The notes beneath the pieces are model-generated. The model saw only the letters and a list, made by a program, of their open reading frames with translations. It did not search any database and had not been told where the DNA came from. A stretch of DNA of 64,000 nucleotides from Bacteroidota bacterium (lineage in GTDB: Bacteria > Bacteroidota > Bacteroidia > Flavobacteriales_D > Crocinitomicaceae). A program made the translations under genes and the position numbers. The DNA is taken from positions 1 through 64,000 of the forward strand of contig JAJRQK010000006.1 of assembly GCA_024280295.1 (NCBI GenBank), given 5' to 3'. Shown piece after piece: positions 53,836-61,366 of the stretch; the first letter of the stretch is position 1, and each line of letters opens with the position of its first letter.

Positions 53836-54204
53836 TCAGCTACCACAAGCTTCACAATCTTCACCGTTTTCAATTGAACATGCAGCAATTGCATCTTGTT
53901 CTATTTGCTCTGGTGTTCTTGTCTCAACTACTTCCTCAACAGCTTCTGTTGGTTCAGCAATTGCCGCTTTATCGATTGTAAATTTGATTGCGTCTGTTGC
54001 AGCTTTCGTTCTGAGGTAGTACATCCCTGTTTTCAACCCTTTCTCCCATCCATAAAAGTGCATTGACGTCAGTTTCCCAAAGTTCGCGTTCTCCATAAAG
54101 ATGTTCAATGACTGTGATTGACAGATGAATGCTCCACGATCAGCAGCTAGGTCTATAATTGCTTTTTGCGAAATTTCCCATGCTGTTTTGTAAAGATCTT
54201 TCAA
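53836..54204 (-). CDS. nrdA: Ribonucleotide reductase large subunit, C-terminal fragment (nrdA after an in-frame stop)
   Basis: 122 residues from a TTG at 54204, the first start-like codon after the TAA at 54208-54210 in the same frame. It reads directly on from the 672-residue N-terminal piece: [35 protein letters not shown] is normal NrdA sequence. It holds the radical-transfer tyrosine pair (Tyr62-Tyr63 in GMYYLRT, like Tyr730/731 of E. coli) and the C-terminal redox cysteines CEAC (117 and 120). Without this part the large subunit should not work. It could be made by reinitiation or readthrough, or the stop may be a base error. Confidence 0.85.
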
Positions 54205-54207
54205 ACG

Positions 54208-56226
54208 TTAAGGAACTTCTTGGATGTTTTGAACTGATCCGTTTGCTGCCATTATTTTTTGACGCATATTATCATTCCACAACCCTTCTCTTACGAGATC
54301 CTTCAATAAATGTTTGTTCACAATAATAAATTCACCTGAAAGTACACGTCGTGTATAAATGTTAGATGTGTAAGGCTCGAAGCACTCGTTGTTTCCAAGA
54401 ATTTGTGCCGTTGAAGCAGTTGGCATCGGCGCAAGTAGTAATGAGTTACGCACACCGTGTTCTTTAACTTCTTCTTTTAATACATCCCATTCCCAGCGAC
54501 TTGATGGAGTAACATTCCACATGTCGAATTGGAAAACTCCTTTAGATACTGGAGATCCTTTAATTGTTTCGTAAGGTCCCTCTTTTTTAGCCAAATCCTT
54601 AGACGCTGTCATCGAAGCGTAATAAATCGTTTCAAAAATTTCAGAGTTCAAGGTTCGCGCTTCTGGAGACTCAAATGGGAGTCCCATGTTGATGAATGTA
54701 TCAGCCAATCCCTGAACACCCAATCCAATCGGGCGGTGGCGCATATTTGAATTACGAGCTTCCTCCACAGGGTAGAAATTACCATCAATAATTCTATTCA
54801 AGTTCAATGTAGCTTGATAAGTTACTTCGAACAATCGATCATGATCAAACGTTTTATCTTCAGAAACATATTTAGGCAATGCTAGTGATGCTAGATTACA
54901 AACCGCAACTTCATCTGGAGCTGTATACTCGATAATCTCAGTACATAAGTTTGAAGACTTGATTGTTCCCAGGTTTTGTTGATTCGATTTACCATTCGCA
55001 GCATCTTTGTACAACATGTAAGGCGTACCCGTCTCAATTTGAGATTCTAATATTTTAAACCAAAGGTCTTGAGCTTTAATTGTTTTTCTTCCTTTTCCTT
55101 CGCTCTCATATTTTGTGTACAATGTTTCAAATTCTACACCATGGACATCAGAAAGACCTTTACATTCGTGAGGACACATCAACGTCCAGTCACCGTTTTC
55201 TTTAACCCGTTTCATAAACAAATCTGGAACCCAAAGTGCGTAGAATAAATCACGTGCACGTTGTTCTTCTTTTCCGTGGTTCTTTTTCAAGTCAAGGAAA
55301 TCAAACACATCAGCATGCCAAGGTTCGATATATATTGCGAAAGATCCTTTGCGTTTTCCACCACCTTGATCTACGTATCGAGCAGTATCGTTAAATACAC
55401 GAAGCATTGGTACGATACCGTTTGATTCTCCATTCGTCCCTTTGATATAAGATCCTTTAGCACGGATATCGTGTATAGCCAATCCTATTCCGCCTGCTGA
55501 TTGTGAAATTTGCGCACACGATTTGAGCGTATCATAAATTCCTTCAATGCTATCTTCCTTAGTTGTAAGAAGAAAACAAGATGACATTTGAGGTTTTGGC
55601 GTTCCAGAATTGAATAAGGTTGGAGTCGCATGTGTAAACCACCCTTCCGACATTAAGTTGTATGTCTTAATTGCCGAATCGATGTCGTTTTTATGAATTC
55701 CAACCGACACACGCATTAACATGTGCTGTGGACGCTCAACGATTTGACCTTCCATTTTCAACAAGTACGAGCGCGTCAATGTTTTGAACCCGAAATAATC
55801 ATAGCGGAAATCACGGTCATAAATAATGCTAGAATCCAAGCGTTCTTTGTTCTCTTGGATAATCTTGTAAACTTCATCACTAATAAGCGCTGCTGCCTCA
55901 TCCGTTTTAGGGTCAATGTAGTTATACATATCCTCAACAACATCCGACCACGTTTTCTTCGTTTCCTTGTGCAAATTAGATACCGCAATACGCGAAGCAA
56001 GCAGCGCGTAATCTGGATGATCAATTGTTTTTGCTGCTGCAACTTCTGCCGCGAGATTATCCAACTGGGTCGTAGTAACCCCATCAAATAACCCCTCAAT
56101 TACTTTCATTGCTACCGCTTCGGGTGATACTAGGGGATCTAATCCATAGCACATTTTTGCGATGCGAGCTGTAATTTTGTCAAATTTTACAGCCTCTTTT
56201 CTTCCGTCTCTTTTTACTACGTACAT
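54208..56226 (-). CDS. nrdA: Ribonucleotide reductase class I large subunit, N-terminal and barrel part, ending at an in-frame TAA
   Basis: 672 residues. An ATP-cone occupies about 1-90, then the barrel with Cys217 (MSSCFLL), Asn426-Cys428-Glu430 (NLCTEI) and Cys443 (VCNLASL), matching the active-site set of E. coli NrdA (Cys225, Asn437, Cys439, Glu441, Cys462). [17 protein letters not shown] is also canonical. The frame stops at TAA just before a segment that in relatives continues without break. Joined with the downstream fragment it would be about 796 residues, the normal family length. It follows nrdB by 71 nt. Confidence 0.93.
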
Positions 56227-56297: not shown

Positions 56298-57272
56298 TTA
56301 AAAGTCTTCGTCTAGTGAGAAATTTTGAGCCCCATCGTTGTTCAATACTCCTGCTTTTTGGTATTCACCTACTCTTTTCTCAAAGAAGTTAGTTTTCCCT
56401 TGAATTGAGATCATTTCCATGAAATCAAATGGGTTTGCCACGTTAAACACTTTATTGTTCCCAAGTTCCAATAGGAGTCGATCTGCGACAAACTCGATGT
56501 ATTGTGACATCAAGTCGCTATTCATTCCGATTAGTTTAACTGGTAATGCTTCGAGAATAAATTCTTTTTCAATGGCAACAGCATCAAGGATTATTTTCTC
56601 AACATTCTCCTTTGGAAGTTTGTTAACTACATGATTGTTGTACAGCAGACACGCGAAATCACAATGCAACCCTTCATCTCTTGAAATTAGTTCGTTAGAG
56701 AAGGAAAGTCCAGGCATCAATCCGCGTTTTTTCAACCAGAAGATCGAACAAAATGAACCTGAAAAGAAAATTCCCTCAACTGCAGCAAATGCAACCAATC
56801 GTTCAGCAAATGAACCTTCATCAATCCAACGCAATGCCCAATCAGCCTTGATTTTAACACAGTCCATTGTTTCTAGTGCATTGAACAATCCTTTCTTCTC
56901 TTGTGTATCCTTGATATATGTATCAATCAATAACGAATATGTTTCCGAGTGAATGTTTTCAACTGCTATTTGGAAACCATAAAAAAACTTGGCTTCTGTG
57001 TATTGAACTTCAGCAAGAAAATTTTCAGCAAGGTTTTCATTTACAATTCCATCAGATGCAGCAAAAAACGCGAGGATATGCTTTACGAAGTGACGTTCGT
57101 TGTCATTTAATTTATTTTCCCAATCGATCAAGTCTGGTGCAAGATCTATTTCTTCAGCGGTCCAAAAACTAGCTTCAGCTCTTTTGTAAAACGACCAGAT
57201 ATCATCATGTTGAATAGGAAAAAGTACAAATCGATTATTGTTTTCTTCCAAGATTGGTTCTACTTCTGCCAT
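56298..57272 (-). CDS. nrdB: Ribonucleotide reductase class I small subunit
   Basis: 324 residues. The metal-ligand pattern is present: [29 protein letters not shown], and [15 protein letters not shown] with the E-x-x-H ligand pair, then [17 protein letters not shown] with the second one. NrdB houses the metal-radical cofactor that starts catalysis in NrdA. It is the first gene of nrdB-nrdA. A region with TACATTTT, one base off the -7 consensus, lies 32-39 nt upstream. Confidence 0.95.
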
Positions 57273-60872: not shown

Positions 60873-61366
60873 AATGAAGAATAATTTGATCTACTTTTAC
60901 TGTCCAAGAATAGTCTTTTTCTGTAATTACGTTCCAAGCATCGTGCGTACAAATTGCAAGCTTCTATCGATTCCATGAATAATGCAAGATCTCTCCATGA
61001 TGATTAACGTCATCTGACATTCTAGCAACACGAAGGACAAATTCTGCCGCACTTGTTTGATCATCAAAAGCAAGTTCACTGATAGACCTCAGTCGAAGAA
61101 CAGAATTTCTTATCTGCAAGTAATTCGAAAAACTTATCCACAGGTATTAATCCTGGGACACATTGAATTTTCCAACCAGTAGTGTTCTCAAACTATTGAT
61201 CTAGCTGAGAAAACTCTGCGATTATTTCCGAGTACAAGACCTCCATCATGTCTTTTTAAAGCATCTAAACACACAACTTATCTTTCAAATTTAAAACCTG
61301 TCGCTCGAAAAGTGCTTTCCAGACCTCAAAGTCGCCTTGTTTATATGCACTAAATTCTTGTTTCAT
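60871..61366 (-). pseudogene. Decayed phenylalanine-4-hydroxylase joined to pterin-4a-carbinolamine dehydratase
   Basis: From an ATG at 61366 the minus strand reads FEVWKALFERQVLNLKDKL, like the N-terminal part of bacterial phenylalanine hydroxylases, then hits stops. Further on TGWKIQCVPGLIPVDKFFEL and FCSST match the next conserved block. The iron-binding catalytic core is deleted. Then SELAFDDQTSAAEFVLRVAR, DDVNHHGEILHY and AICTHDAWNVITEKDYSW match a pterin dehydratase (NHH and THD residues kept), with an internal stop and ending at TAA 60871-60873. At least four stop codons interrupt the locus, so it is not functional. Confidence 0.75.

Follow-up and report, generated by a model that had tools for sequence, protein, structure and literature searches.

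A lone in-frame stop codon in a Crocinitomicaceae nrdA gene probably reflects a consensus error or a nonsense allele of recent origin

Ribonucleotide reductase (RNR) is essential. In the 64,000-nucleotide stretch of a Crocinitomicaceae genome analyzed here (the window), the gene encoding the catalytic subunit of its class I RNR, nrdA, is crossed by an in-frame TAA. The question raised by this locus is whether that codon divides the enzyme into two working chains, marks a dead gene, is read through, or is not a working part of the gene at all. Read on the minus strand, the frame opens at 56226 with an ATG, reaches the TAA after an N-terminal piece (N piece) of 672 codons, and continues for another 123 codons (C piece) to a TGA at 53838-53836, while nrdB adjoins nrdA directly upstream on the same strand. 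The features are as follows.

53836 to 56226, minus strand: nrdA, class I ribonucleotide reductase catalytic subunit, with one in-frame TAA and the terminator TGA
54211 to 56226, minus strand: N piece of nrdA, 672 amino acids, with the ATP-cone, the all-alpha domain and most of the barrel (PF03477, PF00317, PF02867)
54208 to 54210, minus strand: in-frame TAA, codon 673 of nrdA
53836 to 54207, minus strand: C piece of nrdA, 123 codons plus stop, with the end of the barrel (PF02867 positions 461 to 523), the Tyr-Tyr pair and the C-terminal cysteines
54202 to 54204, minus strand: TTG suggested as a restart, the codon for Leu-675
54016 to 54021, minus strand: Tyr-Tyr pair, codons 736-737
53845 to 53856, minus strand: CEAC near the C-terminus, codons 791-794
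56298 to 57272, minus strand: nrdB, small subunit, open and uninterrupted (PF00268, 374 bits)

An earlier note on this DNA had reported the interrupting TAA at 54208-54210 and had assigned both the Tyr-Tyr pair and the C-terminal CEAC to the second piece, all of which we confirmed. It had also described the frame as resuming two codons after the stop. The frame instead resumes at the very next codon, and from codon 674 onward it aligns without gaps to that of the nearest relative (genome G016). We take the Tyr-Tyr pair to have the radical transfer role of the NrdA family and the CEAC to be the redox cysteine pair. The domain set (ATP-cone, all-alpha and barrel) together with the neighboring small-subunit gene is that of a class I RNR, and the frame through the Tyr-Tyr pair and the C-terminal cysteines is not a single unbroken one, as it contains the TAA at codon 673. 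Against TIGR02506 (NrdE_NrdA), the N piece scored 632 bits, above the curated cut-off of 341, and the C piece by itself scored 79.8 bits, under that cut-off. A 123-codon in-frame continuation with the expected NrdA C-terminus is no chance ORF. The match of the N piece to the PF02867 profile ends at position 457 and that of the C piece spans positions 461 to 523, which places the interruption within the barrel domain (profile positions 457-461 of 523) and not in a linker. Among solved structures, this NrdA was closest to 3hnc and 5d1y, presumably both human RRM1, with 1263 bits along its full length. In alignment with these structures, codon 673 falls at the beginning of the segment EIPDDLKQLYKTVWEISQK, well ahead of the Tyr-Tyr pair, and the C piece would therefore need to provide the end of the barrel plus the radical-transfer pair. 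A structure prediction for the intact NrdA of a relative was unusable (mean pLDDT 41.9, pTM 0.44) and gave a mere hint of a helix from residue 673. As a separate observation, the NrdA encoded at 53836-56226 is a eukaryote-like one within the Bacteroidota, with 3hnc and 5d1y scoring far above the E. coli structure entries (about 226 bits).

Codon 673 was compared across 124 aligned rows of the fetched relatives, in which some genomes appear twice. The codons were CAA (71 rows), CAG (32), GCA (9), GAT (4), GAC (2), GAA (2), ACG (1), ACA (1) and TAA (2), and both TAA rows are this genome. Lys, Gln or a similar residue had been anticipated at the site; Gln was borne out, being encoded in 103 of the 124 rows including that of G016, while Lys is absent from the codons counted. 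The site is a tolerant one, as relatives have Gln, Ala, Asp, Glu or Thr there. G016, whose NrdA is 96% identical over the 672-amino-acid N piece, has Gln at this position. The N piece had a match in 33 of 34 same-genus genomes, and the same-genus NrdA open frames, excluding this genome and two contig-end fragments, range from 781 to 817 codons for the main match, that of G029 being interrupted by a TGA. The comparison of close relatives that the earlier note had proposed thus yielded no other genome with a stop at codon 673, and a split common to the relatives was rejected, since none of the other aligned rows or same-genus genomes has a stop there. It should be noted that these relatives (Crocinitomicaceae, Fluviicola sp.) are nearly all metagenome bins. 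In an order-wide NrdA search, 276 of 299 genomes matched, and two of the best 150 of these 276 matches had an internal stop, namely this genome and G117.

Relative to G016, synonymous changes number 282.5 in the N piece and 43 in the C piece, against 39.5 and 3 non-synonymous ones (omega 0.017 and about 0.010, respectively), with synonymous sites near saturation (dS about 1.5 for the N piece). Both pieces are under equally strong purifying selection, and the C piece has not decayed. Thus, the C piece has been fully selected for almost as long as this lineage and G016 have been apart, and the stop must be recent, unreal or compatible with function. Codons 661-690 differ from those of G016 only synonymously, bar the stop. 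Moreover, this genome has 0 private NrdA changes at otherwise invariant columns (mean 0.44 per row over 101 rows), which indicates that the gene is otherwise clean. In a genuine two-polypeptide NrdA, ribosomes would terminate at the TAA and begin anew either three bases further, at the TTG, or at an ATG 37 codons downstream, and the resulting C piece, with the Tyr-Tyr pair and the redox cysteines, would reassociate with the barrel. Such an arrangement is favored by the position of the stop shortly before a possible start, by the strong purifying selection on the C piece and by the tolerance of codon 673 in relatives, and split RNRs are known from the accessible text of two reports (PMC4520616, PMC3653736). 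However, the TTG after the stop is simply Leu-675, which is also TTG in G016, and by eye the bases preceding it (AACATCCAAGAAGTTCCTTAACGT) contain no good Shine-Dalgarno sequence. There is no new ATG, the nearest downstream ATG being 37 codons past the stop, and alignment of the frame against that of G016 revealed no insert at the stop. The cut would also fall within the barrel instead of a linker, and it is confined to a single genome, with no shared split among the 34 same-genus genomes searched, 33 of which matched. For a settled split gene, some change at the start site would be expected. Hence the reinitiation at the TTG that the earlier note had offered gained no positive evidence, and we regard a genuine two-polypeptide NrdA as unlikely. 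That a free-living bacterium relies on a two-chain class I NrdA as its sole RNR, with a recent stop in the barrel rescued at the adjacent TTG, strikes us as quite unlikely.

It is also conceivable that the stop is real and fixed and that nrdA is dead, in which case RNR activity would come from a gene outside the assembly or from a host, a partner or salvage. The source genome comprises 3,464,170 bases in 74 contigs and is 98.78% complete and 0.96% contaminated. It contains one match to PF02867 (class I/II catalytic domain), which is nrdA itself, and the Pfam search of this 98.78% complete assembly gave no match to NrdD (PF13597). As a control for both searches, PF02867 and PF13597 were positive in 11 and 6 of 14 genomes, respectively. 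A Pfam search of the genome for further RNR catalytic subunits, as had been recommended, therefore came back empty, and the suggested complementation by another RNR has no candidate gene in the assembly. Because RNR is essential and this is the sole catalytic gene found in the assembly, fixation of a dead nrdA should kill the cell unless the missing part contains an RNR gene. With 74 contigs and 98.78% completeness there is a small gap in which such a gene could lie, and three short all-N contigs in the sample mean that some letters are hidden. Against a dead gene stand the failure to find a further catalytic RNR gene, the undecayed C piece and the intact nrdB, and we consider this explanation improbable.

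Lone stops elsewhere in this genome were surveyed by comparing 163 G016 genes with 1.02 Mb of its sequence (59,962 aligned residues). Homology was used here because a codon-usage scan for further readthrough stops was too weak, with nrdA itself below threshold. In addition, 66 same-frame neighboring ORF pairs were judged by eye, and the homology test covered nrdA, L221 and L230. A total of 10 of the 163 genes were flagged, and three (nrdA, L221:5711 and L230:4441) were left after seven had been set aside, either because the stop lies no more than about 25 residues into the alignment and thus likely before the true start (L156, L192, L194 twice and L201), or as a short doubtful ORF (L146) or a match with three stops (L144|41). 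The L221:5711 gene (contig 35, 4409-6757) is a secreted-protein gene of 783 codons with LVIVD repeats and a Por secretion-tail domain, and it has a clean lone TAA where G016 has CAA. At L230:4441 (contig 44, minus strand), a TGA replaces a Trp of G016, the frame diverges further downstream, and the gene looks degenerate. The L144|41 match (61091-61324, minus strand) is partial, aligning over 80 residues with a 221-codon ORF of G016, and may be a remnant or a diverged stretch. Three contigs of this genome (L217, L219 and L236; contigs 31, 33 and 50) are short and consist entirely of N. When the comparison was turned round, 5 of 163 genes were flagged in G016, comprising three stops near the start, one interior stop (L165) and one broken frame (L180). 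The nrdA genes of two other genomes likewise have a single stop in an otherwise normal frame, a TAA at codon 407 in G117 (L142) and a TGA at codon 621 in G029 (L143/L019), and the unrelated positions of these stops argue that there is no shared mechanism. Overall, lone stops form a low background in such assemblies.

The weakest alternative, that ribosomes read the TAA as Gln or another residue to yield full-length NrdA, is very unlikely: although the clean TAA of L221 lies opposite a CAA of the relative, a replacement that a suppressor inserting Gln could tolerate, a genome with such a suppressor should have more than two stops of this kind, TAA terminates 387 of 702 long ORFs (TAG 206, TGA 109) and is thus the commonest terminator, with no sign of depletion, in the 1.02 Mb sample (about 30% of the genome), and no stop-reading anticodon occurs among the 31 tRNAs found, an incomplete set without Ala or Ile tRNAs. 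A change of genetic code or a suppressor tRNA was rejected on these tRNAs and the terminator usage, which likewise lend no support to the stop readthrough listed in the earlier note.

Most probably, then, the TAA stems from a miscalled consensus base or from a nonsense allele that arose recently and is present in part of the sampled population. This explanation is favored by the uniqueness of the TAA at codon 673 to this genome, with Gln in the nearest relative and in 102 other rows; by the C piece, undecayed at an omega of about 0.010; by the sole PF02867 match and the lack of a PF13597 match in the assembly; by the lack of adaptation near the stop, where codons 674-690 show only synonymous changes, the TTG is inherited and nothing is inserted; and by the lone stops in the nrdA genes of G117 and G029 and at L221 of this genome. 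A sequencing or assembly error had been among the options raised at the outset, and it provides the best fit once extended to cover the case in which the sampled population carries a nonsense allele. Among the 163 genes compared, just two had a clean interior stop and a third, degenerate gene had one as well, which speaks against a gross assembly fault. Since so few stops in these genes and the absence of private NrdA changes imply that fewer random errors are to be expected per gene, a real allele is as likely as a wrong base. Under either form of this explanation, nrdA would be a normal class I RNR gene on which the organism depends, the TAA would be no working part of it, and cells living by nrdA would produce NrdA as one chain of about 795 residues, as is usual. 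We infer that the TAA is absent from the bulk of the living cells. Lone stops in essential genes occur at a low rate in assemblies, and reads are needed before a biological reading is placed upon one. A stop that proved real and fixed would represent the initial stage of fission in an essential enzyme and would directly test whether a class I RNR tolerates a cut between the barrel and the radical-transfer tyrosines; a two-chain NrdA, if true, would show such a fission arising naturally, before any remodeling.

Our literature search found no report on in-frame stop codons in nrdA and none on the ribonucleotide reductase of Crocinitomicaceae, and nothing to the point on stops in metagenome assemblies. 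Split RNRs are known from other systems. As described in the available portions of PMC4520616, NrdJa and NrdJb of Pseudomonas aeruginosa form a class II RNR split at one site common to many species, both proteins have been purified and both are required in vivo, and this split is described there as having no counterpart outside viruses; the part of PMC5987646 available mentions, without detail, that Nostoc has split RNR enzymes. There as here, the cysteine-bearing C-terminal part is apart from the catalytic part, whereas the present enzyme is class I, and its interruption is found in one genome, cuts the barrel and is accompanied by no start signals. The earlier note had cited phage Aeh1 as a precedent for a working split NrdA, and this held: in the accessible text of PMC3653736 and PMC2988022, the mobE homing endonuclease gene lies between nrdA-a and nrdA-b and the enzyme is reported functional. 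In both cases NrdA is encoded as two pieces, but here there is no insert and a single codon is changed. The interruption is neither shared by relatives nor made by an inserted element, and as for an own start of the second piece, a TTG that might serve is present, inherited as a Leu codon and without a neighboring sequence that resembles a Shine-Dalgarno motif. This possible start aside, the nrdA locus shares none of the tested marks of the NrdJa/NrdJb or Aeh1 split. It does share its nrdB-nrdA order, domains and length with the ordinary Crocinitomicaceae/Fluviicola-like NrdA (e.g., that of Flavobacteriales bacterium UBA7325; L002/L032/L144), from which it differs in that the relative is open over 793 codons with Gln at the site where this genome has TAA.
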